From: Fidelibacterota bacterium
GTDB taxonomy: Bacteria; Fidelibacterota; UBA8477; JABMPR01
Direction: 5' to 3'
DNA length: 64,000 bases
Assembly (NCBI GenBank): GCA_018650445.1
Contig: JABIFX010000205.1
Coordinates: 1-64,000 of the forward strand
Made by a program: the position numbers and the translations under genes. Below the pieces are notes generated by a model, which did not search any database, was not told where the DNA came from, and worked only from the letters and a program-made list of their open reading frames with translations. This document shows, in pieces, positions 23,006-49,534 of this stretch; the stretch's first letter is position 1; each line of letters begins with the position of its first letter.

Positions 23006-26000
23006 ATGAGAAAAGCCAGTCTATTCCTTATCATGTTAGCCCTAGCATCCACTATCATGGCAGCAACCACCGGCAAAATTTCAGGAGTGGTGGTTGAGAA
23101 GACCAGTGGTGAAGCAATGATCGGTGTCAATATTATTGTTGAAGGAACCAGCCTTGGGGCGGTTACTGATATCACCGGTTATTATGTAATACTAAATGTT
23201 CAACCGGGGTATCAAACTCTAAAGGCGACTATGATTGGTTATTCTCAATACACGATTGAGGATGTCCGAGTTGAAATAGATCGAACTCAGACCGTTAATA
23301 TTGAAATGGCAGAGGAAGTACTCGAAGGTCAATCAGTAGTGATTGTCGCTGAACGTAAAGTGATAAAGATGGATGTGGCTGCCAGTCAGCGTAGCGTTAC
23401 CGCTGAGGGGATTGAAGAATTACCAGTAACCAGCGTTGCTGAAGTTTTGACACTACAGGCAGGAGTGAGTGGTTTTTCTGTCAGGGGTGGTGGAACCGAC
23501 GAAACAAGTCTCATGATTGATGGAATTGAATTGAAGGATGAGAGGACTAATAAACCCATTACAGGTATCCCACTCAGTTCAGTACAAGAAATTTCAGTCC
23601 AAACCGGTGGTTTTAGTGCTGAATACGGAAATGTTCGATCCGGTGTGGTCAATGTAGTAACCAAAGATGGTAGTGGTGGCTATAGTGGGACCCTGACGAT
23701 CAAACATAGTGCTGCTGAACCGAAGCATTTTGGTATATCACCTTATGATGAAGACTCGTTTTATATGAGACCTTATCTCGATGATGCAGTAGCATGGACG
23801 GGAACCGAAGTCGGTGAAACCTATACAGATGCAAATAACAATGGCTATTGGGATGAGGGTGAAACTTATACTGATTTCAATGAAGATGGAGAGTATACGG
23901 CCTGGGATAAATATACCCAACGTCAATACCCAGCATTTGACGGATGGAATGCAGTTTCAGAAGCCACGCTGGCCAATGATGATCCTACTGACGATTTGAC
24001 ACCATCTGCAGCGAAAAGATTATTTGAATGGCAGTATCGCAAACCTGGAAACATTGTCAACCCTGATGTAAATATTGATGGTGGTTTTGGGGGACCAGTT
24101 CCACTTATTGGTGACCGCCTGGGCAATTTGAGATTCTTTCTTTCCTATAGACAGGAAAACAATGAATACCTCTATCCCGTCTCAGAAAGCGGAACCCTGT
24201 CCAAGACAACCTTACTGCGTCTGACTTCTGATGTTGACAAATCCAAAAAACTTAACTTTACGTACATGGCTGGAAACCTTACTGCTACAACATCCTCCAG
24301 AGGCGGACTAACCAGTTATATGTCCAACGTATGGGACTTGGCCACACAGGTCAACCGTAGGGGTTTCACCATGCCCTGGAGATTGTACTCCAATCAATAC
24401 TGGGCGCCCACTGCCGTCTCACATGCCACTTATTCTGCAAAATTCACGCACTTGCTCAGCTCTTCCTCCTACTATGAATTCATAGTTAAACACATCAAGA
24501 AGCAATATGACACTGGCCCTGGACCAGAGAGAAATCTGGACGAGGTCTATGAGATATTTGATGGATATTTTGTGAATGAAGCTCCCGAGGGCTTTTATGG
24601 TACTCCTGTAAGTACTATTGATGGTAACATGAATATGGGTGGTGCTGTTAGTACTTCTCGAGATCAATCAATTGTTAAAACAACTTCCCTAAGTGGAGAC
24701 TATGTAAATCAGATAAACCCAAACAACCAAATCAAGGCTGGATTTGATTTTGTCTATGATGATCTCGAAATGGAGTTTGGTTCATTGAACTACTTTTTGC
24801 CTGAAGGAAATTATTGGTCGCGGATGTATTACACTCCGTATCGGTTTACCACTTACCTCCAGGATAAAATGGAATTTGAGGGATTTATCGCTTCCATCGG
24901 TTTAAACGCTGAGCTTATCAGCCCCAATACCTCATGGTACAAGGTAGATCCTTATGATGAAAGTTTTTACTCCTCGAGCTATAGCCAGGCTACCGAGGAA
25001 AGCTTTGAGAAAGAGGATGTGAAGGCACGATTATACCTGAGTCCTCGTTTGGCAATCTCACATCCTATCACCATCAATTCAAAATTGTATTTCAACTATG
25101 GTCATTATAGACAAGTCCCAACCACTGAAAGTCTGTTTAGAGTACAGAGGAAGGTGGTTCTCAACGGAGACAGAGAAATTGAAGACCTCACTCAGTTGTC
25201 AACGATTGGTGATCCAAATCTAGATCAAGCCAGAACCATTTCCTATGAGTTGGGCTATGACCATGCACTGTTTGATACCTATCTTCTCCATCTTGCCGCC
25301 TACTATAAGGACATCACTGATCAGCAGGATTGGACACGCTATATCAGTGCCAGTGGTCAGGTGAACTATAGTCATCTCACCGCAAACAGTTATGAGGATA
25401 TCAGGGGTTTTGAAGCTGATATATCCAAAATGGTGGGTGACTGGATCACTGGAAATATCAACTTTGAATATCGGGTGAATACATCAGGCTATTTTGGTGT
25501 AAAAAGATACTATCAGAATCCCAGCGAGCAGCGCGATTATCTGAAAAATAATTCAGTGCAAAGTAAACCGCGGCCTACCCCACGGGTAAAATCTGTGGTG
25601 GATTTCCACACACCTCGCAACTTTGGACCAACAATCTTCAGTCAAAAACCCCTGGCCGAATGGCACATTAATATTTTGAGCAGTTGGAGAGCTGGATCCT
25701 GGTTTGGATACAATCCCAGAGGCATAGAAGGTATCGGTTACAATTTTAGATGGCAGGATTCAAAATCAGTTGATTTGAAGATCTCCAAAATTTTCAAGGC
25801 TGGCAATATGAGTATCAAGTTTTTTGCTGATATCAACAATGCCTTGAACCTGAAGACCTTTAGCGGTTACGGTTTCGAAGATATTCATGACTATGACTTC
25901 TATTTAGGCTCCCTATTACTTCCTCAAGACAAACTGGAAGCCATTGGTGAAGCCATATTCCCCGGTATCGAACACAATGATAATCCAGGTGATGTGAGGC

Positions 26001-26272
26001 CAGACGATGTGGCATTTGTACCCATTGAGTGGATTGCTGATATCGAAAAACTATCTGCCGATTCGCGGAGTGAGCGTGGTATTTATTATGATGCTGCCAC
26101 TGAGACTTACCTGCAATTCGATCACAATAGTGGCTGGGAAGAGGTTGAATCGAGCTATCTGGATGAAGTGGTTGATAGTAAGGCATATATCGATATGCCC
26201 AACCAGGGTTCATTCATATTTCTTTCACCCCAAGATATCTTTTTGGGTCTAAACATTTCTTATGATTTCTAG
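23006..26272 (+). CDS. TonB-dependent outer-membrane receptor (module A)
   Basis: A 1088-residue outer-membrane transporter or receptor. It has a signal peptide (cleaved after IMAA, about residue 21), a carboxypeptidase-regulatory-like Ig domain (~24-105, GKISGVVVEKTSGEAMIGVN), a plug domain (~125-225, MIDGIELKDE, GGFSAEYGNVRSGVVNVV), then a long beta-barrel ending in Phe (NISYDF). Residues ~270-300 insert two EF-hand-like loops (DANNNGYWDEGE, DFNEDGEYTAWD). No SusD partner follows; instead a sorting-domain protein, a lipoprotein and a PorV-like protein do. It is strongly similar to the module B receptor (ISPYDEDSFYMRPYLDD versus ISPFDEDSYFMRPYLDD). The substrate is unknown. Confidence 0.92.
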   Translation: MRKASLFLIMLALASTIMAATTGKISGVVVEKTSGEAMIGVNIIVEGTSLGAVTDITGYYVILNVQPGYQTLKATMIGYSQYTIEDVRVEIDRTQTVNIEMAEEVLEGQSVVIVAERKVIKMDVAASQRSVTAEGIEELPVTSVAEVLTLQAGVSGFSVRGGGTDETSLMIDGIELKDERTNKPITGIPLSSVQEISVQTGGFSAEYGNVRSGVVNVVTKDGSGGYSGTLTIKHSAAEPKHFGISPYDEDSFYMRPYLDDAVAWTGTEVGETYTDANNNGYWDEGETYTDFNEDGEYTAWDKYTQRQYPAFDGWNAVSEATLANDDPTDDLTPSAAKRLFEWQYRKPGNIVNPDVNIDGGFGGPVPLIGDRLGNLRFFLSYRQENNEYLYPVSESGTLSKTTLLRLTSDVDKSKKLNFTYMAGNLTATTSSRGGLTSYMSNVWDLATQVNRRGFTMPWRLYSNQYWAPTAVSHATYSAKFTHLLSSSSYYEFIVKHIKKQYDTGPGPERNLDEVYEIFDGYFVNEAPEGFYGTPVSTIDGNMNMGGAVSTSRDQSIVKTTSLSGDYVNQINPNNQIKAGFDFVYDDLEMEFGSLNYFLPEGNYWSRMYYTPYRFTTYLQDKMEFEGFIASIGLNAELISPNTSWYKVDPYDESFYSSSYSQATEESFEKEDVKARLYLSPRLAISHPITINSKLYFNYGHYRQVPTTESLFRVQRKVVLNGDREIEDLTQLSTIGDPNLDQARTISYELGYDHALFDTYLLHLAAYYKDITDQQDWTRYISASGQVNYSHLTANSYEDIRGFEADISKMVGDWITGNINFEYRVNTSGYFGVKRYYQNPSEQRDYLKNNSVQSKPRPTPRVKSVVDFHTPRNFGPTIFSQKPLAEWHINILSSWRAGSWFGYNPRGIEGIGYNFRWQDSKSVDLKISKIFKAGNMSIKFFADINNALNLKTFSGYGFEDIHDYDFYLGSLLLPQDKLEAIGEAIFPGIEHNDNPGDVRPDDVAFVPIEWIADIEKLSADSRSERGIYYDAATETYLQFDHNSGWEEVESSYLDEVVDSKAYIDMPNQGSFIFLSPQDIFLGLNISYDF

Positions 26273-26286
26273 AAGAATGCAGATGC

Positions 26287-28392
26287 ATGAATAAGGAAAA
26301 TAAATTTATGATGGCTAATAAAATGAGAAGTAAGATTTATTGGCAGGCACTTGGCGTATTGGTCGGGATCAGTCTGTTGGTGAATATTACATTTGCCGCC
26401 GAGAGCAAGTGGATTGCTGTAGGTAATTTGCATAACTGGTACTCTGAAGAGGGTAGCGAGGTTGAAGTTGGTCGCACGGGACAGATACGGGATCAACAAG
26501 ACGGTCTCCGCTGGCCAGCACAGTTTAGCTTTCAAGACGCTCAAGCTGCCAAGGGCTTGTGGATCGGTACCACCAATTTTTTCGATCCCCAGATAAGCAG
26601 CCAATTTGATTTTAAGGTGGCGCATGTGGGTCCCCGTGGTCCTGTGGATAGTAAAACTGAGATCATGACTCAAACCTTCAAGATGTACGGTAAATATGAT
26701 CACCCCGCTGTGTTTGTGGATGGCGATCCAGCCAGCACACTTCAGTACCTGGATATTGTGGATAGTGTAGACGCTACCATGATTGAGGATCGCAAAATCG
26801 TAAATATTATTAATACCTCTACAGGTATAACAATGACACGTACGATTCGGGGATTCTCAAATCAAAACCATGATAACTATCATGTCTTTGATTACGTTTT
26901 TGAGAATACAGGTATTTACGATATTGCCGGGAGCTCATTTAGTGAAACGCTAACCGGTGTGTATTTCGGATTACAGTATCGTTATGCCCCTACGAGGGAA
27001 AGCGGACCTTACGGTGCAGGGGGATATTGGGCACCTCAGAATACAGCCTGGGGCGCCAACACTGTCAATGAGGTGATTGGAGAGAATCCAGCTGACAATG
27101 AAATTCGTGCGCTCTATTCCTGGCATGGATTGCATTCTCAGGCTGCCGATGGCCATGATAATATTGGTTCTCCATACTATGGTGATGGGGGAGATGGTCA
27201 CCTGAGTGCTCAGCAATTTGTGGGAGTAGTCACTATTCACGCTGATAAATCTACCACTGATCAAACCGATGATTTATACCAACCTACAACCACTTTATAC
27301 ACAGGTTCTGACGAACCCATAACTCAAAGCAATGATCAATTCAATCCCGTCAAAATGCAGGAGAGATATAACCATATGGCTGCGGGTCATCCCTCTGAAT
27401 CACACGCTGAAGCAATTGGAGACAGTTACGCTGACGCCTGGGGAACCGATCCAGGTGGTTATTCACAACTACATGCTTTCGGACCTTATGACATCGCTCC
27501 AGGTGAGAAAATCCATATTGTCCTGGCTGAAGGAGCTGCAGGTATTAATCGAGATATGTGCTATCAGGTAGGCGGCAACTGGTTCGACGCTAGTGTTGCC
27601 GTTGGTGATCTCTTGAATCCTGATGGATCCGCCCCAGCCACCAAAGACGAATACAAGAATAAGTGGGTATTTACAGGTGAGGATTCGCTTTTACAGACCT
27701 TTCACCGCGCGATTGAAACTTATGACTCTGATTATGCTGTACCAGAGCCACCACCACCGCCAGCTGAATTTACTGTGACCTCTGGTGGTGATCAGATTGG
27801 TCTCTCCTGGGATTCAAACGCTGAGATGCATGCTGGTTTTATGGGTTATAAAGTTTATAGAGCGATTCACAAGCCAGATACGACATATGAGGAAATATTT
27901 TCCTGTGATTTGGATAATCTCTCTAATGCATTTGCCGATGTAAAGGCGAAACGCGGGTTTAAATATTTCTACTATGTTGTTTCTTACGATGATGGGAATA
28001 CGAATCAAGTATCCCCTGGAGCACCACTTTACAGTAGCAAATTTTACACGATGACCAATAAAGGGGCATCTCTTAAACGACCTGCTGGGGATCATCTCAG
28101 CAAGATCCGTGTTGTTCCAAACCCATATAATATCAAGTCGAAAGAACTCCAATTCAGTGAGTCTGGAGTAGATCGATTATACTTTTATGATATTCCAGGT
28201 GTTTGCACAATTCGTATTTATACTGAACGTGGTGATTTAATAAAAACCATTGAACACACTGACAATAGTGGTGATGAATCCTGGGATTCTATTACCAAGT
28301 ACAGACAGGTTGTGTCCAGTGGTATCTATATTGCCCATTTTGAAACTCCTGAAGGTCAAACGACTTTTCGAAAATTTATTGTAATCCGATAA
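26287..28392 (+). CDS. Secreted FN3-type protein with C-terminal sorting-like domain (module A)
   Basis: A 701-residue exported protein without a known catalytic motif. The signal peptide covers ~residues 10-37. A large N-terminal domain (~38-490) includes TMTRTIRGFSNQNHDNYHV, a proline hinge (PEPPPPPAEF) follows near 490, then a fibronectin-III-like domain (~495-590). A type IX-like C-terminal domain (~600-701) begins IRVVPNPYNI and ends FRKFIVIR. It has clear paralogues at 33387 and 46530, each directly after a TonB receptor. The gene starts 14 bases after the receptor. ATG at 26308 (AAGGA upstream) is an alternative start. It may be a surface-exposed or released partner of the receptor; function unknown. 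Confidence 0.8.
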   Translation: MNKENKFMMANKMRSKIYWQALGVLVGISLLVNITFAAESKWIAVGNLHNWYSEEGSEVEVGRTGQIRDQQDGLRWPAQFSFQDAQAAKGLWIGTTNFFDPQISSQFDFKVAHVGPRGPVDSKTEIMTQTFKMYGKYDHPAVFVDGDPASTLQYLDIVDSVDATMIEDRKIVNIINTSTGITMTRTIRGFSNQNHDNYHVFDYVFENTGIYDIAGSSFSETLTGVYFGLQYRYAPTRESGPYGAGGYWAPQNTAWGANTVNEVIGENPADNEIRALYSWHGLHSQAADGHDNIGSPYYGDGGDGHLSAQQFVGVVTIHADKSTTDQTDDLYQPTTTLYTGSDEPITQSNDQFNPVKMQERYNHMAAGHPSESHAEAIGDSYADAWGTDPGGYSQLHAFGPYDIAPGEKIHIVLAEGAAGINRDMCYQVGGNWFDASVAVGDLLNPDGSAPATKDEYKNKWVFTGEDSLLQTFHRAIETYDSDYAVPEPPPPPAEFTVTSGGDQIGLSWDSNAEMHAGFMGYKVYRAIHKPDTTYEEIFSCDLDNLSNAFADVKAKRGFKYFYYVVSYDDGNTNQVSPGAPLYSSKFYTMTNKGASLKRPAGDHLSKIRVVPNPYNIKSKELQFSESGVDRLYFYDIPGVCTIRIYTERGDLIKTIEHTDNSGDESWDSITKYRQVVSSGIYIAHFETPEGQTTFRKFIVIR

Positions 28393-28403
28393 GGGGAGCA
28401 CTT

Positions 28404-29414
28404 ATGACTTACCTAAATAGAAAAAATATGCGTCCTTTTGTCTTCCTATTCATGGTGGCTGCGCTGTTCACATCATGTGAGGATTTTGAAGAAAAGACCT
28501 ATGAAATGAGTGATGTGGAAATGTCCGCCTGCGCATTGATGAATGATACCTTAGAAGTATCGGTTGATACCTATGATATGGCTCATGTCAGTCCAGCCTG
28601 GTCAGGTTATGATATCGAATCCGCACTCACCTCCAATGAGCGTATTGGCAGTACCTGGTTTGATGATGACCATTTGATTATAAATGATATCTATGTGTTT
28701 ACGCTGGGTAGCGATACTCTGGCTGCACTACAATTCAGATCTTTAGTGTATGAAGAATTATCAAACACAGTGGACAGTGTAGAAGTAGAATTTCTCTACA
28801 ATGCAAGCGGTGGTCCAAGTTTTGATACGGCTGTCGGTGACACTGTGTTGGTGACAGGGATTGTAAACTCCTCAGCTTATCTAAATTTTGAATTGGGATT
28901 GGTAACAGCCTCTGATGTCTGGCATCTCCAATTTGATGGGGGGACTGTCAAGCAAAATACTGATCTTAAACACAATCGGGTTCGTGGACAAAAAATTTCT
29001 ACTTTCTCGACTGCTTCAAGTGGAAAATATTTTGCCGATGGCCCTGGCTATGATATCGCACTTGAGAGTTTAATGGCCGATTCGCTTTATCTGGTTTATT
29101 CCGATTCATTAAACTATCTGAATTTGTCAAATTCAATCGACGCTGGTTTTATCCTCTGGGATAGATCAGGTCAGCTCAGCAAAACATTAATATTGAACCT
29201 GGATGAATACATATCGATTTTTATATGGGACTCAGAGGGAATGCTGGTGACTCCCATCGACAATTCAATATCAATGGAAACCATATCCTACTGTAGCTCA
29301 GTCAAGGTTCGTGAGGTATTTGAGCTAGAAGAAGAAATGTATCTATTGCGATTCCGACCGCATGAATCCGCTGTCGAGTGGAATCACCACCTAGCTATCG
29401 TGGAGGGAGAATAA
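28404..29414 (+). CDS. Lipoprotein of unknown function (module A)
   Basis: A 336-residue probable lipoprotein. The hydrophobic N-terminus ends ALFTSC near residue 27, a good lipobox, followed by an acidic segment (EDFEEKTYEMSD). The rest is beta-rich with many Asp/Ser (FDTAVGDTVLVTG, WHLQFDGGTVKQN) and no recognised domain. It lies 11 bases after the sorting-domain protein and one base before the PorV-like gene, so it belongs to one operon. It occupies the position SusD would take in a Bacteroidota uptake locus but shows no SusD-like TPR helices. Confidence 0.75.
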   Translation: MTYLNRKNMRPFVFLFMVAALFTSCEDFEEKTYEMSDVEMSACALMNDTLEVSVDTYDMAHVSPAWSGYDIESALTSNERIGSTWFDDDHLIINDIYVFTLGSDTLAALQFRSLVYEELSNTVDSVEVEFLYNASGGPSFDTAVGDTVLVTGIVNSSAYLNFELGLVTASDVWHLQFDGGTVKQNTDLKHNRVRGQKISTFSTASSGKYFADGPGYDIALESLMADSLYLVYSDSLNYLNLSNSIDAGFILWDRSGQLSKTLILNLDEYISIFIWDSEGMLVTPIDNSISMETISYCSSVKVREVFELEEEMYLLRFRPHESAVEWNHHLAIVEGE

Positions 29415-29415
29415 C

Positions 29416-30426
29416 ATGAAGCGTACGAGGAACACACAATTTATTTACGCCCTATTCGCCCTGCTATTACTCTCTAGTAATAGTACGTCGGTCTATTCAC
29501 AGGTGAAGTTGGCTCAGTCAGGTGCTCAATTTCTAAGTGTTGATTCTGATGCGAAAGCCGGAGGAATGGCTGGCGCACTGACTACGGTTGAATCAAATTC
29601 TGCTTCCATTTTCTTCAACCCTGCCGGAATGGCCAGAATGAACCCAAATGTAGACTTGATGGCCAGTCAGAATCAGTGGTTTGCAGATATCGCATACAAC
29701 TCCTTTTCCGCTGCCTTTAAACCAGGAGCCGGTGAATGGGGTGTATTCGGACTCTCCTTTGTTTCGGTTGACTACGGAGAAATCCAGGGAACTCAGCGTT
29801 GGGACAATGATCTGGGATATATCGATACAGAGATACTCACACCATCAGCATATGCTGCTGGATTTGGTTATGCCAAGGCTCTCAATGATAAGTTTTCGGT
29901 TGGTGCTCATCTCAAGTACATCGGTCTTAATTATGGTAAAAGTATCTACCCCGATGATGCTGGTAGTCCTGATACTGTTAAGTCTCATCTGGCTTTCGCC
30001 AATGCATTTGATTTTGGTACCATCTATAAGACAGGCTGGAAAACCCTGGCTTTTGGCATGTCAGTGAAAAATTTCTCAAATGAAGTGGTTTTCGAAAAGG
30101 AAGGTTTTCAATTGCCCCTGACATTCACACTTGGCATATCAATGGATGCCTTTGAATTGGTCAGGAACGCTATGGGTCAGCAAACCATGCTGGTAAGCCT
30201 GGATGTACTTCATTATCGCTCACATGCTGAGCAACTCAGAATTGGGTTGGAATACAAACCTATCAATATGCTTGCGCTACGAGCGGGCTACATGTCTGCC
30301 AATGACGAGAATGATATTTCTTTTGGTATCGGAATTCAACAATTCGGTCTTGCCTTTGATTATGCCTATGAACCCTTTGGCCGTTTAGGTGATGTACAAC
30401 GGATGACCGTCCGATTCTCGATATAA
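29416..30426 (+). CDS. PorV/PorQ-family outer-membrane protein (module A)
   Basis: A 336-residue beta-barrel protein with a signal peptide (~residues 1-30). The family start is seen in AQFLSVDSDAKAGGMAGA and NSASIFFNPAGMARMNPN, and the C-terminus VRFSI has the pattern of outer-membrane barrels. PorV acts in the type IX secretion attachment complex, shuttling cargo recognised by its C-terminal domain; PorQ is a relative. It ends the module A operon, next to a protein with such a C-terminal domain, which supports a secretion role. A fatty-acid-transporter-like (FadL-fold) function cannot be excluded. Confidence 0.85.
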   Translation: MKRTRNTQFIYALFALLLLSSNSTSVYSQVKLAQSGAQFLSVDSDAKAGGMAGALTTVESNSASIFFNPAGMARMNPNVDLMASQNQWFADIAYNSFSAAFKPGAGEWGVFGLSFVSVDYGEIQGTQRWDNDLGYIDTEILTPSAYAAGFGYAKALNDKFSVGAHLKYIGLNYGKSIYPDDAGSPDTVKSHLAFANAFDFGTIYKTGWKTLAFGMSVKNFSNEVVFEKEGFQLPLTFTLGISMDAFELVRNAMGQQTMLVSLDVLHYRSHAEQLRIGLEYKPINMLALRAGYMSANDENDISFGIGIQQFGLAFDYAYEPFGRLGDVQRMTVRFSI

Positions 30427-30444
30427 TGTGAGTAATGGGGAATT

Positions 30445-33387
30445 ATGACTAAACACATCACACGCGGAGTGTTATTACTCCTCATATGTGTGAACACATT
30501 AATTTCAGCAACCACTGGTAAAATCAGTGGTCATGTCACTGATTCAGAAACTGGTGAGCCTCTGATTGGTGTAAATATTTTCATCTCTAATCTAGGTACT
30601 GGCGCAGCCACGGATATTGATGGCTATTATGCCATTTTAAATGTCCGCCCAGGAAAACATGAATTACGTGCATCCATGATTGGTTACACTCCTTTTGTTA
30701 TGCAGAATGTGGATGTTGTGATGGGACTGACCTCAAAGATTGATTTATCTATGTCCTCTGAAATTCTGGGTATGGAAACGGTCACTGTTGTCAGTGAGAG
30801 ACCCATCGTGGCCAAGGATTTATCAGGGAGTCAGTTAAACATAGATTCAGAATCGATCGAGCAATGGCCCATCTCCTCAGTTAATGCAGTTCTTGGTGTC
30901 CAAGCGGGTGTTGAGAATATGCAGGTAAGGGGAGGCTCAGTTTCCCAGACCGCGGTTATGGTGGATGGATTTCTCTCCAATGACAGCCGCTCAAATGCTC
31001 CAGTGACCACCTTGAGTTTGAGCTCAGTAGAAGAGATTCAGGTCCAATCAGGTGGATTCAATGCCGAGTATGGCAACATTCGCTCTGGTATTGTTAATAT
31101 TGTGACAGCAGAGGGTCCCGCAGATCATTATTCAGGATCATTCTACTATCAGAATAGCCCCGCTGCACCCAAAAATTATGGCATATCACCCTTTGATGAA
31201 GATTCATATTTTATGCGCCCCTATCTGGATGATGATGTTGCCTGGACGGGAACTGGAAGTGGTGGCTGGGATGCATATACTCAGGATCAATATCCTGGCT
31301 TTGAAGGATGGAATTCATATAACAATCCAGAAACGGGCATGACAGCGTCTGCAGCTCAACAGGAATGGATTTATGAGCATCGTAGAACTGGTAAAATTAC
31401 CAAACCGGACCAAACCCTGGATCTGGGTTTCGGTGGTCCCATTCCCGGCGTTGCAAAACTTAGATTTTTTCTATCCATAAGAAGCGAAGAAGAACAATTT
31501 ATTGTTCCTTTATCCAGAGACGGATACAGCTCAAACTCCAGTCGTTTAAAATTGAATTATGATTTGAGCAGCAATCAGAAGCTGATTGCCACGATGCTCT
31601 ATTCAGAAGAGCACTCAGTGAACCAATATAATTGGACTACTGTGCCTGAGGGCAATCTATTACGTGGGACCTATAGGGTGGCAAATCTGGTCACAGCCAC
31701 CGGGTTATTTACACCTGCTTATTATAGCCCCTACTCAGTATTTCGAGGACGGTTTGATGTGAGCTATAACCATATGCTGAGTTCTGACTCTTATTTTGAA
31801 ATTGTATTTCAGCATGGACAAACCCAATACCAGACTTATCAGATGGATGATCGTGACACGACGAAACTCGAAATATTTCCAGATTATTTCCATGATGAGG
31901 CACCGTATGGATATAATTCTGCTGATTGGATGAGTCTGGGAAGAGATACCAGCCACACCAGCTCGACACTGCTGAAGGCAGACTATACCGACCAGCTTAA
32001 TTCATACAATCAGATCAAAATGGGTGTACAGGCCAATTTTTATGATCTGCAGATAAGATCCTACACGGAGAGTGATAAGGATACCTGGTCCAGGACCATG
32101 AATTATGATGTAATTCCAATCAGGATAAGTGGCTATGTCCAGAACAAGCTTGAGTTTGAAGGGTTCATCGCCAACCTGGGTCTTCGTGCAGAATATTCAT
32201 CTGCAAATACCGATGTGTACAAACTGGATGCCTATGATGATCTTTTTAAACAGGGACTGGGAAATAATCTTGAGGAAATTGCTGAGAAACAAAACGCAAA
32301 ATCCACCTTTACGTTAAGTCCAAGACTGGGAATTTCACATCCTATAACAGATCATTCCAAATTGTATTTCAATTATGGACATTTTTACTCAGAGGCTGGC
32401 TCAACCTACCGGTTCAGACTGCAGCGAGAATCCAATGGGTTGGTCACTAATCTTGGAAATCCTGAACTGGAACAAGAGCGAACCATTGCTTATGAGTTAG
32501 GTTACTCACATGGATTTCGTAACACATACATACTTGATTTAGCCACCTACTATAAAGACATCACGCAACAACCAGGTTGGGTGATTTATAAGAATGCGAC
32601 TGGTTCAGTCAATTATCGTAAGGCAGAAAGCAATAATTATCAGGATATACGTGGTATTGAAATCACCCTTAGTAAACCAAAAGGTCGCATTTTCTCGGGA
32701 TTTATAAATTATACCTATATGGTAAAAACTAGCGGGTATTTTGGACTACTGCGTCAGTTTCAGAATCCTCAGGAACAGCGAGATTATGAAAACCACAATG
32801 TCGTTGACAGCAAGCCAAGAGCGCGACCCTATATCCGAGCAAATCTTTCTATGAGAACCCCTGATAAATTTGGACCGTCATTGGCTGGAATGTATCCGGC
32901 AGAGGGTTTTGAAATCAGTTTCCTGGCCAATTATAAGACTGGAAGCCAATTCATCCACCATTCCTCTCTTGCCGGTGATGTATATGTTCAATGGACTCCT
33001 CAATGGAATGTGGATTTACGAATTCAGAAAGCTATTTCCGTTGGTGGTTTGACTTTAACGGCGTTTTGCGATATTGCTAATCTTCCTGATAATAAATATC
33101 TCAGCTATAGTGGCTTTTCGAATCAGTTTGACTATGCTGATTATCTCAGCTCGCTCAACTTTTCTTTCGAAGAGGGTATAGATCATGGGGATGATTACGT
33201 GGGAGCATATCGCGAAGATGATGTAGCTTACGATCCTCTCGTGCCAAATCCTGATAATGATTCACAAATTGCTGCGGATAATGAGCGCCGGCGGGACACC
33301 AAATCATACATCGATATGCCGGACTATCGATCACTTACCTTCTTAAACCCCCGTAAATTCACTTTCGGGTTGAGGTTTAATTTCTAA
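30445..33387 (+). CDS. TonB-dependent outer-membrane receptor (module B)
   Basis: A 980-residue paralogue of the module A receptor. It has a signal peptide (to about residue 22), a carboxypeptidase-regulatory-like domain (~25-105, GKISGHVTDSETGEPLIGVN), a plug (~125-225, MVDGFLSND, GGFNAEYGNIRSGIVNIV) and a barrel ending FGLRFNF. Unlike module A it lacks the EF-hand-like insert: VAWTGTGSGGWDAYTQ goes straight on. It begins only 18 bases after the module A PorV gene, so A and B may be one transcript. Its stop overlaps the next start by one base (TAATG). The substrate is unknown. Confidence 0.92.
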   Translation: MTKHITRGVLLLLICVNTLISATTGKISGHVTDSETGEPLIGVNIFISNLGTGAATDIDGYYAILNVRPGKHELRASMIGYTPFVMQNVDVVMGLTSKIDLSMSSEILGMETVTVVSERPIVAKDLSGSQLNIDSESIEQWPISSVNAVLGVQAGVENMQVRGGSVSQTAVMVDGFLSNDSRSNAPVTTLSLSSVEEIQVQSGGFNAEYGNIRSGIVNIVTAEGPADHYSGSFYYQNSPAAPKNYGISPFDEDSYFMRPYLDDDVAWTGTGSGGWDAYTQDQYPGFEGWNSYNNPETGMTASAAQQEWIYEHRRTGKITKPDQTLDLGFGGPIPGVAKLRFFLSIRSEEEQFIVPLSRDGYSSNSSRLKLNYDLSSNQKLIATMLYSEEHSVNQYNWTTVPEGNLLRGTYRVANLVTATGLFTPAYYSPYSVFRGRFDVSYNHMLSSDSYFEIVFQHGQTQYQTYQMDDRDTTKLEIFPDYFHDEAPYGYNSADWMSLGRDTSHTSSTLLKADYTDQLNSYNQIKMGVQANFYDLQIRSYTESDKDTWSRTMNYDVIPIRISGYVQNKLEFEGFIANLGLRAEYSSANTDVYKLDAYDDLFKQGLGNNLEEIAEKQNAKSTFTLSPRLGISHPITDHSKLYFNYGHFYSEAGSTYRFRLQRESNGLVTNLGNPELEQERTIAYELGYSHGFRNTYILDLATYYKDITQQPGWVIYKNATGSVNYRKAESNNYQDIRGIEITLSKPKGRIFSGFINYTYMVKTSGYFGLLRQFQNPQEQRDYENHNVVDSKPRARPYIRANLSMRTPDKFGPSLAGMYPAEGFEISFLANYKTGSQFIHHSSLAGDVYVQWTPQWNVDLRIQKAISVGGLTLTAFCDIANLPDNKYLSYSGFSNQFDYADYLSSLNFSFEEGIDHGDDYVGAYREDDVAYDPLVPNPDNDSQIAADNERRRDTKSYIDMPDYRSLTFLNPRKFTFGLRFNF

Positions 33388-35489: not shown

Positions 35490-35508
35490 TCATCGGAGGT
35501 AACGTATT

Positions 35509-36762: not shown

Positions 36763-36803
36763 GCGAAAATATTATTTAACTAAGACGTGCTAAAAAGCAA
36801 GGA

Positions 36804-36817
36804 ATGTGTATACACAT
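36804..36817. promoter_or_regulatory. Perfect 14-base palindrome, candidate operator
   Basis: ATGTGTATACACAT is a perfect palindrome 46 bases upstream of the secreted propeller gene at 36863. A dimeric regulator could bind here. No regulator is adjacent and no second copy was noticed, so the function is open. Confidence 0.4.
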
Positions 36818-36862
36818 AAAGTATCTTTAGGCACAATAAAGACACAATAGAAGGAGAAAGAC

Positions 36863-38269: not shown

Positions 38270-38288
38270 GAGCAACTTATTATTTCAA

Positions 38289-38320
38289 AAAAGGGCGAGT
38301 GTTTACTCGCCCTTTTTTTT
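38289..38320 (+). terminator. Rho-independent terminator
   Basis: GGGCGAGT-GTTT-ACTCGCCC is a perfect eight-base stem followed by eight T, 20 bases after the secreted propeller gene. Confidence 0.93.
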
Positions 38321-38432
38321 ATACAATATAATCCAAATTGTGTTCAATTCACACGTAGTTAGTATGCTAAATTTACTTACTTAAAGTGTATTCATGCTTA
38401 TCTTCATCGAGATTTAACAAAGGGAGAGAGTT

Positions 38433-41546: not shown

Positions 41547-41572
41547 GAACGTGTGTCAATTTAGCGAATCTT

Positions 41573-41606
41573 AAAAGCACCCGAATGAGTTCGGGTGCTT
41601 TTTTTT
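41573..41606. terminator. Bidirectional terminator
   Basis: AAAGCACCCGAA-TGAG-TTCGGGTGCTTT is a perfect 12-base stem with a four-base loop. It has T on the plus side and a short A/T run on the other, between two convergent genes. Confidence 0.93.
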
Positions 41607-41608
41607 AT

Positions 41609-43129: not shown

Positions 43130-43656
43130 TTCCTTTCTGAGCGACAAAATGTACTATTTATTTGCTTCGACATTTTCATCACTGATAATACATAATAATG
43201 TACATGCATCAATCCAGATTATTAATAAAAAGAGGTCATCTCTCCACATATATTTTGCTAATGCAATAATTGCCTATATTATGCTCGAAATATTCATGAA
43301 TTCCACCATTCAATGCTACAAAGTTAGTAAAAGTAAAATTACTAATTAGAGTCCTAAATATATAATAAACAGCATGAAGGATGTATAAATGGATGGATAT
43401 TTATAAAAAGGTTACTATCGAGTTGTTTACTAACTATATTTGCAGCAACATTGAGCTAAATCATCGAAATTAATAAACTGCATTTGCCTGCAGTTTTTGA
43501 CAATAAGTAATATCCTGTAATTACATTCACAGACTTTGATCAGGATCAGTATTTAGTCCGTTGAATCATATTTGAAGGCAAAATGGGGAGAGAGCTATCA
43601 ATATGAGATCTCACAATTTTCCAAATTCGAACTACTTGAAGACAATGAGGTATACT
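43130..43656. other. Long AT-rich intergenic region with candidate promoter
   Basis: About 500 bases hold no credible gene. The left part is the leader of the minus-strand kinase gene. At 43475-43496 AAACTGCA-TTTGCC-TGCAGTTT forms a perfect eight-base stem. It is immediately followed by TTGACA at 43497-43502, an exact -35 box, and TGTAATTA at 43516-43523 could be an extended -10. This would drive module C. Two in-frame ATG codons upstream of the chosen receptor start (43603, 43645) fall here. Confidence 0.5.
43475..43523 (+). promoter_or_regulatory. Candidate promoter with abutting hairpin for module C
   Basis: An exact TTGACA (43497-43502) is followed after 15 bases by TAATTA preceded by TG. 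A perfect eight-base inverted repeat with a six-base loop ends one base before the -35 box and could be an operator. The 15-base spacer is shorter than optimal, so confidence is modest. Confidence 0.4.
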
Positions 43657-46506
43657 ATGCAACGTATTTTCATCACTATCATCCTTCTCGTGATCACGTT
43701 GTCATCTATTTTCGCAGGAACCAGTGGAAAGATAACTGGCGTCGTGACCGATGAGAATGGAGCACCCCTTATCGGTGTCAATGTATTAATTGAGAATACT
43801 AACATGGGAGCTTCGACCAATATTGATGGCTATTATGCAATTCTCAATGTCCCACCAGGTACTTATGCGCTATCAACATCCTACATTGGCTATGCAAATG
43901 TAAAGGTCACTGATATCATGGTTTCCATTGATCTGACTAGATATGTGGATATTACCATGACAACAGAAGTCCTGATGTCAGGTGAAGAAGTTATCGTGGT
44001 TGCGAAACGTACGCTACTCAATCAGGATGAATTCTCATCCAAGCATATCGTTTCCGCGGATGAAATGGAGATCCAGCCCGTGGAAAGTGTTATTGGAATC
44101 GCCAAGAATCAGGCCGGTACTGTGGGAAGTAATTTTCGTGGTGGCCGTAGTGGGGAAGTTCTGGTGGTGATTGATGGTATTCCTGTCCGCGATGCATCTT
44201 CTGCATATACTGGTGACTTTGGTGGATTTACTTTAGATATTCCAAAAGAGGCCGTTCAGGAGATGGAAGTATCACTGGGAGGCTTTTCAGCTGAATATGG
44301 AAATGTTCAATCTGGTATTTTGAATCTCGCAATGAAGGAAGGTAGCCCAAGATTCAAAGGCTCCTTGTTCATGACTACCACTGATTTTGGAGGTATAACC
44401 GAAAAGCTGATGCCAAAAGATGAATGGTGGCTGGATGCCAAATATCAGCAGAAACTGGAAAGCAATTATCGCTTTTCTCTGAGTGGTCCCATTGCATCAG
44501 GTCTGACCTTTAGTATATCAGGTGATGTCTTCAACAGAAATCAGGGACGCTTCTTAAATCAGGAAGCCTTCAATCAGAGTTATCAGGGGAAAGTATCCTA
44601 TCGGATATCCAATAATGCTAAAATTTCCATTGGTGGGAACTACAGTCAAAACGAATGGGACAGTTTCTATTTTCAGGCAGGTAAATATGGTCCTGGTGAA
44701 AATTTCAGAACTGATCAATACGATTTTATCGAAGATTTGAACGCTTCAAATGATACTCTAACCCGCTATTTCTACGTGGATGATGCTTTTGATTCTACCC
44801 TATATAGCTCTGGTCTTGTTGATAGTCTTTTAAGTCCATATTTTATTACTCTTAATGATTCAGATTCTGTCGGCGTTGCTTACCATCGTGACATTTACCT
44901 TGATTCTCCATTGAATCACTTGACCTCCCGGAATAAAGAGAGCCAAATGTTATATGGTGTATTTACCTATACTTTTAGTTCGCGTACATTTTTGGAAGTC
45001 AGTGCACAGATGATGAAATCCATGTATGAGAATGGCATGCGTGACTATTCTGATCGGGATGGTGATGGTGATACGAAGGAGATGATCCAGTGGGATAGAA
45101 ATGTTGAAGGCCCCAGACCGAATCGGCTAGGGCGAGAGTACCAGTTCTGGTGGCTGCGGGGAGACGATTCCGAGTATAGACACCAAGAGTCCAGCTCATT
45201 TCTTTTAAAATCAGATTTAACATCACAAGTCGATCAATATCATATGCTCAAGGGAGGTGTTCAGCTTAACATGAACACAACTGATGTTACGGATATTACA
45301 TGGTCATCCGTTTCCGAAGAAAGTGATTTTGCGCTGAACTCGCTTCGTAAGGACATCTGGAAAAACACAGACGTGGAATTTGGGGCCTATATCCAGGATA
45401 AGATGGAATTCAAGGATGCCCTGGTAACCCTGATAGGGCTCCGCTATGACTACTTTAATCCCAATGGTTTCGATGATCCAATACTTTACCCCGGAAATAT
45501 GGACAATCCAATATTGACAAATGATGAGAATGATTTTGCCATCTTCAATGATCCCCAGGAAGCAAAAGCCAGCCATCAGCTCAGTCCCCGGATCGGAATC
45601 TCTCATCCCATCTCAGATCGGGATATCCTGTTCTTTACTTACGGACACTATTTCCAACGACCAGACGGCCGTTATCTATTTCGGAACCATCAATATCAAA
45701 GTTTGACCAAGGTAGGGAACTGGGTAGGTAATCCAGCACTCAAGCCAGAAAAAACGGTAGCCTATGATATATCATTTGAGCATCTGTTTACACCGAACTT
45801 GAAGATGTCCATCACCGGCTATTTCAAGGATGTCTCGGATCTCGTGAACAACGAGAAATTTGTTTTCCCAGATGGTACTGAGGTCAATCGGTATGTCAAT
45901 GGTGATTATGCCAATATCAAAGGTGCCGAGCTGGCGGTCAAACGCCAGAAGGTTGGCAACTGGAGCCTTCAGGGGAATATTTCATACTCTATTGCCAAAG
46001 GACGCAACTCTTCTTCAGGTGGCGTGAAACTCTATCCCTATGACAAGAAGATGTATCCTTTGAGCTATGATAGAAGGATCAGTTCAAATGTGAATGTTGG
46101 CTTATACTCAAATAAGGGAATTCAACCCATCGCCTGGTTAACCAAAGATTGGGTGGCCAGTATTCAATATGAGTATGGTACCGGTAAACCTTTCACAACT
46201 TATGGTGTTCTGGGTGCGAGCAATGATCAACGGTTACCAACTTTCAGCAATGTTGATATTCGCTTAAGCCGCAAATTGGAAATGGGGAACTTTGACTTCC
46301 TGTTCAATTTTGACATCTTTAATGTTTTTAACAATGACGTCCATTATAGCATCTATAGCAAATATTATAATGTGGATGAGGATCCCGGTGAGACCAATCC
46401 TCCGGATATCATTTACAAGGAAGAGCTCTCCGATCTGGAGATCAGAACGCCATTGATCTACGCTTCAGAGCGTCAATTCAAAATCGGCCTTTCGCTGAAA
46501 TTCTAG
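43657..46506 (+). CDS. TonB-dependent outer-membrane receptor (module C)
   Basis: A ~949-residue receptor. It has a signal peptide (MQRIFITIILLVITLSSIFA), a carboxypeptidase-regulatory-like domain (GKITGVVTDENGAPLIGVNV), a plug (VVIDGIPVRDASSAYTG, GGFSAEYGNVQSGILNLAMK) and a barrel ending IGLSLKF. It is more diverged from the A and B receptors, lacking the ISPYDEDS region. I chose this ATG because it gives a standard signal peptide and has GAGG six bases before it; 43603 and 43645 are in-frame alternatives. A 23-base gap leads to the sorting-domain protein. Substrate unknown; no SusD is present. Confidence 0.9.
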   Translation: MQRIFITIILLVITLSSIFAGTSGKITGVVTDENGAPLIGVNVLIENTNMGASTNIDGYYAILNVPPGTYALSTSYIGYANVKVTDIMVSIDLTRYVDITMTTEVLMSGEEVIVVAKRTLLNQDEFSSKHIVSADEMEIQPVESVIGIAKNQAGTVGSNFRGGRSGEVLVVIDGIPVRDASSAYTGDFGGFTLDIPKEAVQEMEVSLGGFSAEYGNVQSGILNLAMKEGSPRFKGSLFMTTTDFGGITEKLMPKDEWWLDAKYQQKLESNYRFSLSGPIASGLTFSISGDVFNRNQGRFLNQEAFNQSYQGKVSYRISNNAKISIGGNYSQNEWDSFYFQAGKYGPGENFRTDQYDFIEDLNASNDTLTRYFYVDDAFDSTLYSSGLVDSLLSPYFITLNDSDSVGVAYHRDIYLDSPLNHLTSRNKESQMLYGVFTYTFSSRTFLEVSAQMMKSMYENGMRDYSDRDGDGDTKEMIQWDRNVEGPRPNRLGREYQFWWLRGDDSEYRHQESSSFLLKSDLTSQVDQYHMLKGGVQLNMNTTDVTDITWSSVSEESDFALNSLRKDIWKNTDVEFGAYIQDKMEFKDALVTLIGLRYDYFNPNGFDDPILYPGNMDNPILTNDENDFAIFNDPQEAKASHQLSPRIGISHPISDRDILFFTYGHYFQRPDGRYLFRNHQYQSLTKVGNWVGNPALKPEKTVAYDISFEHLFTPNLKMSITGYFKDVSDLVNNEKFVFPDGTEVNRYVNGDYANIKGAELAVKRQKVGNWSLQGNISYSIAKGRNSSSGGVKLYPYDKKMYPLSYDRRISSNVNVGLYSNKGIQPIAWLTKDWVASIQYEYGTGKPFTTYGVLGASNDQRLPTFSNVDIRLSRKLEMGNFDFLFNFDIFNVFNNDVHYSIYSKYYNVDEDPGETNPPDIIYKEELSDLEIRTPLIYASERQFKIGLSLKF

Positions 46507-46529
46507 TAGAGCGATTCTTAGGAGAAGTT

Positions 46530-48557
46530 ATGCTTAGAAAAATAAAATTCTATTTGCCACTGTTGTTGATCGCCATCTTGGTTCAAGCTGCTGGTGAGCC
46601 ACTAAAACTCCCCAAAAAGAAGATCAGCTTATTCAAAAAGAGCGAGATTGTTCCCATTGATCATGAGTTTCATCGTATCGGGAAGATCTGGATGCGGGTG
46701 ACTAATTTTTCCATGATAGGTGATGACTCATACCGCGAAAGAACGCCCTCTGCTGATTGGCCAGGCGGTTCAGGCAATTCCTATCTTTATCGAGGCTCGC
46801 TGTGGCTCACAGGAACTCGTAACGACATCCGAAGTACCAGCGGAACAGAGGACCAAGAGTATACCCCTCTGGCCCTGGTTGAAAAGGAAACAATCCTGGA
46901 TGGTCTTGCAGAGCATACCTGGACGAAATTTACTGATGCGATTCAGGTCGATGATGCGCATGTTCCACTGGGTTTGGAAGTAACACAACATACATACGCC
47001 TACGGACTTAGTTTTGCCGATGATTTCATCATTTATAAATACTATCTGAAGAATGTTGGATTGGATACGGATGACGATGGGACTGTAGATGATATGTCTG
47101 CACTGAGAGATGTTCACTTCACTTTTAGAATGGATGGCGATGTCAGCAAGTTGACCACCTGGGATACAGAAGCTGATTTTGTGAACCGTGACGATCATGC
47201 GATGTGTCTCACAGGTGGATGGGATGAACTGTTGTTATTTCCATATGTGGAATATCAAACTGAAATAGACACAACACTCTGGCCGTACATAAATACTTTC
47301 ATTGGTGACTCAACATTAACCATCATGTTTGACGGTGACAATCGGGGTGTAAATGCTGAAATTGATACCAGTTTGATAGACCGCACCACCGTGCCCGGTG
47401 CGTATCAGTATGAGAATCCACATGATGATTTTGGAAATCCAAATCCCCTCGGTGTCTTTCAGACGCCTGGTGTCCTGGCCATGCAGATGATCCATACAGA
47501 TCCATATATGCCACCGAAATCATACACAACATCCTATATCGGCCAAGATTTTTCCGGTGATGCTGCCATGTGGACAAATGCTATTGGGAAGACGACTTTC
47601 GACAAACTGTTCAAATTACCTCCATTTCAAGGGGGTGGAGTGAATGAAGGTGATTATCGTGCTATTACCACCTTTGGTCCTGTTGATTCACTGGCTTACG
47701 GCGATTCAATCGAGGTGATCTTCGCCATTGGTGTTGGCGCAGATGCCGACCTGGGAGGGGCTTATAGTTTCGTCCGACTCCTTGAAGACATGGAAGTGGC
47801 CAAAACACTGGTAGATGATAATTTTGATATTGATCTGAATGAGATTCCTGCATTAACACCTCTGGAAATCGGCGCCGTCCTTAATGACGAAAATGTTTTT
47901 GAGGGTGTAAATGTGACATGGAATCCAACAGCCTCCATGGCTCACCCCAATTTCAGAGGATTTGTTGTAGCAAAATTCAAAGAGAGAACTGTAGCTGGAC
48001 TACCTATTTATGATACGCTGGGTGTTTATACCAAGGCAGATGTTGAGGCCGAATTGCTAGCCACGGGTGAAAATTACTTGAGTGTCTTCGATGAAGATGT
48101 GGCATTTGGTTATGATTATACTTACTCATTGTTTGTCCGTGGGTACTCAGATAAATATTTTAACATGGAACTTCTTTCCAGCGATTTTATCACTGCCACT
48201 GGTAAAAGCCATGTGAATTCCATGGATGATATTTTGGTTGTACCAAATCCATACCGAGCTTCTGCACCATGGAACAATGCAAGTCCATCATCCTCGTCTC
48301 AATGGAAAGATCGCCTGTTCTTTATCAATTTACCAGACGATGCCAGCGTGAGAATTTTCACACTTGATGGTGATTTCGTGAAATTGATCAAAAGTACAGA
48401 TTTGAGAAATATTGAAAATTTGCCAGAGACCAATTCTGCTACGGCGGAATGGGATTTGGTGAGTACATCTAATCGTGAAGTGGCACCAGGTGTCTATCTT
48501 TACCACGTTTCTTCGTCCATGGGCGAAAAAATCGGCAAATTCATCATTCTTAAGTAG
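46530..48557 (+). CDS. Secreted protein with C-terminal sorting-like domain (module C)
   Basis: A 675-residue exported protein, distant paralogue of those at 26287 and 33387. It has a signal peptide (ending LVQAAG, residue ~23), an N-terminal domain including IWMRVTNFSM and SADWPGGSGNSYLYRGSLW (comparable to the WIAVGNL...WPAQ region in module A), a central part with several Asp-rich loops (GLDTDDDGTVDDM, possibly calcium-binding), and a terminal domain beginning ILVVPNPYRA and ending IGKFIILK. The gene sits between receptor C (23-base gap) and a PorV-like gene (11-base gap), with AGGAG before the ATG. No enzyme motif is seen. Confidence 0.78.
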   Translation: MLRKIKFYLPLLLIAILVQAAGEPLKLPKKKISLFKKSEIVPIDHEFHRIGKIWMRVTNFSMIGDDSYRERTPSADWPGGSGNSYLYRGSLWLTGTRNDIRSTSGTEDQEYTPLALVEKETILDGLAEHTWTKFTDAIQVDDAHVPLGLEVTQHTYAYGLSFADDFIIYKYYLKNVGLDTDDDGTVDDMSALRDVHFTFRMDGDVSKLTTWDTEADFVNRDDHAMCLTGGWDELLLFPYVEYQTEIDTTLWPYINTFIGDSTLTIMFDGDNRGVNAEIDTSLIDRTTVPGAYQYENPHDDFGNPNPLGVFQTPGVLAMQMIHTDPYMPPKSYTTSYIGQDFSGDAAMWTNAIGKTTFDKLFKLPPFQGGGVNEGDYRAITTFGPVDSLAYGDSIEVIFAIGVGADADLGGAYSFVRLLEDMEVAKTLVDDNFDIDLNEIPALTPLEIGAVLNDENVFEGVNVTWNPTASMAHPNFRGFVVAKFKERTVAGLPIYDTLGVYTKADVEAELLATGENYLSVFDEDVAFGYDYTYSLFVRGYSDKYFNMELLSSDFITATGKSHVNSMDDILVVPNPYRASAPWNNASPSSSSQWKDRLFFINLPDDASVRIFTLDGDFVKLIKSTDLRNIENLPETNSATAEWDLVSTSNREVAPGVYLYHVSSSMGEKIGKFIILK

Positions 48558-48568
48558 GGGAGGCGAGC

Positions 48569-49534
48569 ATGTATAGAATCCTAGTTTTATCATTCCTGGT
48601 CGTAAATAGCCTCTTGGCATCTGCTTCGATTGGTTCCGTTGCTGGTCAATTTCTTGAGGTCAATCTCCATGTCCGCAACATGGGTATGGGGAATGCTGCT
48701 ACATCCCTTGTGAAGGGCAGCAGTGCTGTGCTTATCAATCCTGCAGGTCTGTCTGAATATCATCCTGATGGTGGGATAGATTCATATATCAGCTATGTAA
48801 AATGGCCAGCTGATATTAATTTTGGAACCGTTGGTATAGCCACAAATATTGGCAATATGGGTCGCATAGCCTTTAGTGCTGTATACGTAAATTATGGTGA
48901 TGAAATTCGCACCACACCTGATATGCCTTTTGGCAATGGAACCTTTTCCATGGGGGGGATGAGTCTTGGGCTGAGTTATTCCAGATTTCTTACGGACAAA
49001 TTCTCATTTGGAGTCACAGTGAAAAATGTCAGTGAGAAATATGATGAATCCGGCTACTCTCAACTTGCCTGGGATATCGGAACTCTATACCGCACAAGTT
49101 TTCGAGGGCTTAAGATAGGTATGAGCATTCTAAACTTCTCAAAGGAAGCCCAGTTTGACGGAAACTATCTGGATTATAGCGACCCCATTAAATATGCCGT
49201 CAATGACTCCAGCGAATATGGAAAATGGCCACTGCCCATGACGTTTAGGACCGGACTCTCATTAGATGTATGGTCTTCTGCGAACTTAAAAGCCAATCTT
49301 GCCATGGATATGATCCACTCCAACAACAATGATGAGATTTATGCTTTGGGGACTGAGATCAATTATCTGAAAAAATTTGATCTACGTGCGGGATATCAAA
49401 TGGGAACCGATATTAATGGTTTAAGTTTCGGCGCTGGATTCCAGGTACTGAAAAGCTTGGGATTCGACTACGCCTTTAACGCAATGGAATATTTTGGACC
49501 TCGCCACAGAGTGGGACTCCGACTAAATTTTTAA
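48569..49534 (+). CDS. PorV/PorQ-family outer-membrane protein (module C)
   Basis: A 321-residue barrel protein. It has a signal peptide (to about residue 21), the family signature AGQFLEVNLHVRNMGMGNAA and SSAVLINPAGLSEYHPDG, and the C-terminus HRVGLRLNF of outer-membrane barrels. It is a paralogue of the module A protein at 29416. By family it could be the cargo shuttle of a type IX-like secretion step for the adjacent sorting-domain proteins. GGGGAGG lies before the ATG and it is in one operon with the preceding two genes. The following FG-GAP gene begins 40 bases later. Confidence 0.85.
   Translation: MYRILVLSFLVVNSLLASASIGSVAGQFLEVNLHVRNMGMGNAATSLVKGSSAVLINPAGLSEYHPDGGIDSYISYVKWPADINFGTVGIATNIGNMGRIAFSAVYVNYGDEIRTTPDMPFGNGTFSMGGMSLGLSYSRFLTDKFSFGVTVKNVSEKYDESGYSQLAWDIGTLYRTSFRGLKIGMSILNFSKEAQFDGNYLDYSDPIKYAVNDSSEYGKWPLPMTFRTGLSLDVWSSANLKANLAMDMIHSNNNDEIYALGTEINYLKKFDLRAGYQMGTDINGLSFGAGFQVLKSLGFDYAFNAMEYFGPRHRVGLRLNF

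Follow-up and report, generated by a model that had tools for sequence, protein, structure and literature searches.

The 64,000-nucleotide stretch of DNA analysed here (the window; contig JABIFX010000205.1 of assembly GCA_018650445.1, from a Fidelibacterota bacterium) contains three genes for TonB-dependent receptors, each followed by a gene for a large exported partner protein with a C-terminal sorting domain. The question raised by this locus is how receptor and partner work together. An earlier reading based on the letters of the DNA (the sequence-only reading) placed the sorting-domain protein in the position that SusD has in Bacteroidota and suggested an uptake or surface-display device in which a PorV-like protein exports the partner. 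Our preferred answer, which we hold to be probable by a modest degree, is that each module specifies an uptake unit in which a receptor cap exported by the type IX secretion system (T9SS) is held by a dedicated PorV-like barrel.

Receptor and partner genes of the window

All ten genes of the three modules were confirmed, and all are encoded on the + strand. Module A consists of TonB-dependent receptor A (23006..26272), partner A (26287..28392), a candidate lipoprotein A (28404..29414), and PorV/PorQ-family outer membrane barrel A (29416..30426). Module B contains receptor B (30445..33387), partner B (33387..35489), and lipoprotein B (35509..36762), and module C is formed by receptor C (43603..46506), partner C (46530..48557), and PorV/PorQ-family outer membrane barrel C (48569..49534). 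The three receptor-partner pairs recognized by the sequence-only reading agree with the coordinates and domain profiles. Its division into three modules has to be corrected, since A and B constitute a single seven-gene run (23006-36762) in the order given above and the modules are not limited to the window. The intergenic gaps of the run are -1 to 19 nucleotides, and the stop codon of receptor B overlaps the start codon of partner B by one base (TAATG), in agreement with the coupling that had been proposed. Because of these gaps and the TAATG junction, A and B appear to form a single operon, the gene order of which is kept in close relatives as far as the loci extend.

Receptor A contains a CarboxypepD_reg-like domain (PF13715, 63.6 bits) and a Plug domain (PF07715), both above cut-off. 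The same two domains exceed the Pfam cut-offs in receptor B, and receptor C has CarboxypepD_reg, Plug, and TonB_dep_Rec barrel domains. The Plug scores of receptors A, B, and C are 44.4, 28.8, and 28.0 bits, against a cut-off of 23.9, and their scores of 61.4, 52.5, and 72.9 bits are below the cut-off of 368.25 for TIGR04056 (OMP_RagA_SusC).

The partners have no Pfam match. Partners A and B are 42% identical, as expected for the paralogues that they had been called, whereas partner C is related to them at the profile level only (hhalign probability 99.2, E 7.8e-20, 417 columns, for bodies with the sorting domain removed). Partner lengths across the genome range from 545 to 1182 residues, and the bodies form homology networks. 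At 92-93% identity, the nearest homologues of partner A are encoded in metagenome-assembled genomes of Neomarinimicrobiota, which identifies the host as a Candidatus Neomarinimicrobiota. These bacteria are poorly known, mostly marine, abundant, and mostly uncultured. The AlphaFold2 model of partner A (predicted local distance difference test, pLDDT, 90.9) has a large beta-sandwich body with helices at about residues 420-480, a FnIII domain, and a C-terminal domain (CTD) of seven strands. A search of the PDB with the whole partner sequence returned only FnIII-type domains and chance matches. Identification of the partner as a known enzyme was rejected, because the sole weak fold lead, to GH94-type phosphorylases at a template-modelling (TM) score of about 0.25, is too weak for use. 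A disguised SusD was likewise rejected, as the partner has neither a Pfam match nor a SusD-like fold among the matches listed. The placing of a sorting-domain protein where SusD would be expected is borne out: the partners never match SusD, and no PF07980 match was found anywhere in the host genome, a draft of 273 contigs and 87% completeness. None of the three partners has a cysteine in its signal region, and they thus lack the lipobox of lipoprotein caps such as those of BtuBG and XusAB.

A separate class of sorting domain follows the receptors

The C-terminal domain of the partners, which we call V-CTD, has the consensus VVPNPY...GKFxVIK. Partners A, B, and C score 19.5, 17.2, and 17.1 bits and miss the TIGR04183 cut-off of 23, and some relatives are narrowly above it. 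The CTD of partner A is predicted to comprise seven strands (residues 608 to 699) in an immunoglobulin (Ig)-like sandwich as in type A CTDs, for which a seven-strand domain has been described (PMC12618676). Lysine 696 is invariant in 67 A/B-type sequences, and lysine or arginine occupies this place in other partners. On the predicted structure, the domain therefore has the seven-strand Ig-like sandwich and the near-terminal lysine expected of a type A CTD. The type B CTD profile TIGR04131 had no match in the partners at E up to 1. Closed genomes were chosen for adjacency counts, which are therefore not distorted by contig ends. The V-CTD profile is bimodal in two of them, both from relatives (22 matches of at least 68 bits, the next at most 45) and also in a third, CP070707 (13 matches of at least 65 bits, the next 48). 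This separation from ordinary CTDs ruled out that the V-CTD is a generic sorting domain. When compared with the PDB, the V-CTD profile matched only the CTDs of PorU and PorZ under E 0.001, whereas the ordinary-CTD profile from the same genomes prefers FlgD and the CTDs of RemZ/NucA-type cargo. In Porphyromonas gingivalis, PorU and PorZ keep their CTDs and are bound to the PorV and PorQ barrels (PMC5562754).

The sequence-only reading would have failed if homologues of the partners were found mainly away from receptors, which was not the case. Separate searches of the host genome with partner A, Plug, and the PorV family, followed by reading of the loci, identified 13 pairs of TonB receptor and partner. 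The upstream sequence could be read for 92 homologues of the partners, which came from records of Neomarinimicrobiota, KSB1, Calditrichota, Ignavibacteria/Melioribacter, and Bacteroidota. Of these, 85 are directly behind a TonB receptor on the same strand, with a median gap of 15 nucleotides and 19 overlaps. The apparent lack of linkage at L118, L130, L132, and L139 is explained by the calling of gene starts, truncation of the locus, or a gene lying in between. Genuine exceptions are L116 and L129 (two genes), in which the partner body is fused to beta-helix-like repeats, and the two complete proteins among them end in an ordinary sorting domain of the QN[YF]PNPFNP type. This linkage across the genome and across phyla rules out chance or local duplication as an explanation of the modules.

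From coordinates alone, 17 of the 22 V-CTD genes of the two closed genomes lie directly behind a Plug gene, whereas only 1 of the 146 ordinary CTDs among the matches listed does (Fisher p 6e-18). Reading of the loci raised the direct cases to 18; of the others, one is a tandem second partner, one has its receptor downstream in the same run, and the rest form one receptor-less tandem pair. All 18 receptor-linked V-CTD genes have a PorV-like gene at most two genes downstream. At L188:6253-10828 (G186), tandem V-CTD genes have neither a receptor nor a PorV-like gene nearby.

Homologues of the partner body are receptor-linked in 85 of 92 cases when they carry a V-CTD and in none of seven when they carry an ordinary CTD (p 2e-7), which indicates that linkage to the receptor goes with the sorting domain and not with the body. 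Of the seven unlinked V-CTD versions, two are accounted for by receptor fragments at contig edges and one by an interposed gene. Since the sequences are not independent, the p-values serve only as guides, and there may have been as few as two independent domain swaps. Natural swaps of the sorting domain were observed at L116:5923-10527, L129:6019-10635, and L168-L172, where the body is joined to beta-helix-like repeats, with an ordinary CTD where the end is present and no adjoining receptor. The ordinary-CTD bodies of L176 and L179, from other genomes of the phylum, are of normal length and lack the repeats.

Receptor and partner distances within the A/B family are correlated (r 0.94), and their class is matched in 58 of 58 pairs. 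In 34 modules, the distances of receptors, partners, and barrels are correlated with rho 0.52-0.76, against at most 0.31 in shuffles, as modules inherited and duplicated as units would give.

PorV-like barrels accompany the V-CTD

The assignment of PorV/PorQ-like proteins to modules A and C stands, with NF033709 scores of 177 bits for barrel A and 163 bits for barrel C against a cut-off of 90. Both are below the cut-offs of the PorV (NF033710, 250) and PorQ (NF033711, 220) equivalogs: barrel A scores 68 and 65 bits, respectively, and barrel C, which is closer to PorQ, 46 and 86 bits. The canonical PorV candidate of the host genome, the C184 gene, reaches 205 bits and is itself below 250; it adjoins an inactive M6-protease-like protein. 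Eleven of the 13 pairs of the host genome are followed directly or nearly so by a PorV-like gene, the remaining two being that of module B and one at a contig edge. In the genomes that were read, 36 of 38 modules have a PorV-like gene at most two genes away. The two closed genomes contain 22 PorV-family genes above cut-off; 18 of these belong to receptor/V-CTD modules, and a further one adjoins a receptor. A tree of 42 PorV-family proteins, drawn from three genomes, groups the module genes with each other and separates them from the clade of the canonical PorV. The lone non-module gene in the module cluster (L080) is positioned at a contig end, so that its upstream gene is outside the data, and a long second PorV-like gene (L189:9722) falls outside the cluster.

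Other arrangements of PorV-like genes were also observed. At L189:8705-11236 and L226:7906-10430, tandem PorV-like genes are located behind the V-CTD gene, and the second is long (494-504 residues) and divergent. At L078:3055-6758 and L211 (G003), a PorV-like gene follows the receptor directly with no V-CTD gene between; these two PorV-like proteins group together (0.995) beside a gene of about 500 residues, which may replace the partner. In CP070707, a V-CTD gene is followed by a PorV-like gene with no adjoining receptor at L221:6935-9950 and L227:3467-6625. PorV-like genes outside receptor modules (L079, L208, and L209; L086, L210, L215, and L216) adjoin an ordinary sorting-domain gene. Because non-module genes also have such neighbours, the data suggest a general rule in the phylum, by which a CTD protein has its own barrel.

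Proposed mechanism of export, anchoring, and uptake

The host genome encodes the T9SS components SprA (723.5 bits, cut-off 200) and PorU (691 bits, cut-off 420). The earlier idea that the PorV-like protein exports the partner is, by analogy with known systems, probably not quite right. Since SprA is encoded, it should provide the export pore, and the barrel would be expected to collect and anchor the partner, as judged from PorU-PorV, PorZ-PorQ, and the type B CTD with PorP/SprF (PMC5562754, PMC12618676, PMC9143113). For type B CTDs, it has been established that cognate shuttles double as anchors (PMC12618676, PMC9143113).

Based on the gene arrangement and these analogies, we propose that each module forms one outer-membrane uptake unit of three parts. 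The TonB receptor would be the energised channel that imports the substrate with TonB. The partner would leave the periplasm through the SprA pore, using its V-type sorting domain, and cap or feed the receptor from outside, the role of SusD, BtuG, or XusB in Bacteroides. The adjoining PorV/PorQ-like barrel would serve as the partner's own shuttle, picking up the V-CTD at SprA, and then presumably as its permanent membrane anchor with the V-CTD kept uncut, comparable to PorQ with PorZ or PorP-like proteins with type B cargo. The A/B operon may represent an elaborated unit in which two receptor-partner pairs share one barrel and are joined by two accessory lipoproteins.

The lipoproteins noticed in A and B are indeed lipoprotein-like. 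Lipoprotein A has about 30 homologues, and among the loci read both lipoproteins are confined to A/B-type operons. In an alignment of 32 members of the lipoprotein B family, the cysteine is invariant, and the model of lipoprotein B (pLDDT 89.2) contains an IPT/TIG domain and a beta-propeller. Its best fold matches are the Bacteroides auxiliary nutrient-binding proteins BT_3476 and BACOVA_00264 (3tc9, 4hw6). Since the A/B operon carries these lipoproteins, one with a nutrient-binding-like fold, uptake is favoured over mere display, the other function that had been considered.

Several observations weigh against the proposed unit. The fold matches of partner A in the PDB are weak (TM about 0.25), with no SusD-like fold among those listed. 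The likeness of the V-CTD to the CTDs of PorU and PorZ is modest (E 2e-4 and 5e-4), and the CTD of the host's own PorU is closer to the ordinary class. Module B lacks its own PorV-like gene. Paired trees are also produced by operons that are merely inherited whole. In CP070707, only 8 of 13 V-CTD genes are directly behind a receptor, and the receptor is therefore not obligatory. As 11 of the same 13 genes precede a PorV-like gene, the V-CTD and the barrel are the tighter pair and the receptor is their usual third member.

Genes around the modules

Two genes for ordinary T9SS cargo are located on the + strand downstream of the A/B operon. The first (36863..38269) encodes a protein with a PNPFN-type sorting domain (PF18962, 35.3 bits, above cut-off), and the second (38433..41546) a protein with a GHL10 glycosidase-like domain (108 bits) and PF18962 (33.8 bits). 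A terminator-like hairpin with a T tail (41573..41602, + strand; 13 pairs, 6 of them G-C) is likely the end of the A/B transcription unit, judging by a pattern match that by itself is no evidence of function. A DUF92/CTP-transferase-like membrane protein is encoded on the - strand (41609-43147) between the A/B operon and module C. Downstream of module C are genes for two ordinary-CTD proteins, one with FG-GAP repeats (49575-51266) and one with a weak M23-peptidase-like match (52652-54814), which are possible co-expressed cargo.

Alternative explanations

The modules could be co-transcribed and yet functionally independent. The partner would then be ordinary type A cargo, cut by PorU and attached to lipopolysaccharide, the PorV-like protein a redundant shuttle, and the genes clustered for use of the same nutrient without forming a complex. 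The presence of SprA and PorU, a CTD that resembles type A in its seven-strand sandwich and conserved basic residue near the end, and the ordinary CTD cargo near the modules are all consistent with this. However, a single PorV is shared by all type A cargo in Bacteroidota (PMC12618676), and because one suffices there, a dozen dedicated barrels need a reason. Furthermore, the V-CTD and the ordinary CTD form distinct classes that show opposite patterns of linkage, and we consider independent cargo unlikely.

A sensing or adhesion device, with the partner attaching to a surface or particle and the receptor passing on a TonB-dependent signal, would suit partners that are large, varied, and extracellular and carry a FnIII domain. 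No anti-sigma or sigma gene is present among the genes of the window modules, however, and the fold of lipoprotein B points to nutrient binding, which makes such a device improbable.

The chief alternative with the receptor as exporter follows the example of Myxococcus xanthus, where the TonB-dependent transporter Oar exports the protease PopC. The one-to-one pairing of receptors and partners and the N-terminal CarboxypepD_reg architecture, as in Oar (PMC6434023), would fit, but 28% of all such receptors have this architecture (PMC6434023). The partner has its own T9SS-type tag in a genome that encodes SprA, and V-CTD/PorV-like pairs exist that are free of a receptor (L221, L227). Export by the receptor is thus disfavoured and very improbable.

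Least probable of the four is that the PorV-like barrel acts in its own right as an import channel of the FadL type, providing a hydrophobic substrate with a second, parallel route, since the sub-threshold Toluene_X/FadL-family match of barrel A is set against a score above the PorV/PorQ family cut-off and an adjoining sorting-domain gene, a neighbour that other PorV-like genes of these genomes also have.

Comparison with known systems and implications

The proposed unit, a T9SS-exported cap held by its own barrel, shares features with several characterized systems. Like SusCD/RagAB, the transporters of glycans and peptides, it has a CarboxypepD_reg-like TonB receptor with a large surface partner encoded directly behind it, nutrient-binding lipoproteins as accessories, and many paralogous copies per genome. 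Unlike them, it has no detected SusD; its partner is a non-lipoprotein with a body predicted to be of beta structure, where SusD has a helical fold, and with a T9SS-type sorting domain, a PorV-like barrel is added, and the receptors score 52-73 bits on TIGR04056, against 368. BtuBG and XusAB (PMC10404256, PMC13142918) also combine a receptor with a non-SusD surface cap, lipid-anchored in those systems, whereas the candidate cap described here is T9SS-tagged and presumably held by a barrel.

The PorZ-PorQ and PorU-PorV pairs of the T9SS attachment complex (PMC5562754), the CTDs of which are nearest to the V-CTD in the PDB, provide the precedent for a surface protein with a retained CTD that sits 1:1 on a PorV/PorQ barrel, as the partners may do. 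Those pairs occur singly, have a housekeeping function in cargo processing, and include no receptor, in contrast to the many pairs found here, each with a TonB receptor. For type B CTD proteins, too, the gene of a dedicated shuttle and anchor barrel, PorP/SprF, lies directly downstream (PMC12618676, PMC9143113), but the partners do not match TIGR04131, the barrels are of the PorV/PorQ family, and a receptor is present. Oar-PopC (PMC6434023) similarly ties a TonB receptor functionally to one secreted protein. There, the receptor is needed for export, whereas here the partner has a T9SS-type tag and the T9SS pore is encoded.

We found no published description of receptor/PorV/sorting-domain operons in the open-access literature searched, and the passages found in genome papers on Melioribacter, Caldithrix, and Latescibacteria do not describe the pattern. 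In descriptions of the T9SS, a single PorV shuttle handles all type A cargo, and type B cargo has PorP/SprF shuttles. The genomes studied here contain a third sorting-domain class and about ten dedicated PorV-like barrels, mostly tied to TonB receptors. It is possible, although we hold this more tentatively than the uptake unit itself, that these modules are a third kind of capped TonB transporter, with a T9SS-exported non-lipoprotein cap that has its own CTD class and stays uncut on a dedicated PorV/PorQ-like barrel, and that this, and not SusCD, is a standard uptake unit, present in many copies, of Neomarinimicrobiota and related phyla. If so, a nutrient uptake route without SusD would exist in abundant, mostly uncultured bacteria, and lid-type transport would reach beyond lipoproteins. 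It would also account for the large number of PorV/PorQ family genes in these genomes and provide a rule for annotation, by which a V-type CTD predicts a receptor partner.

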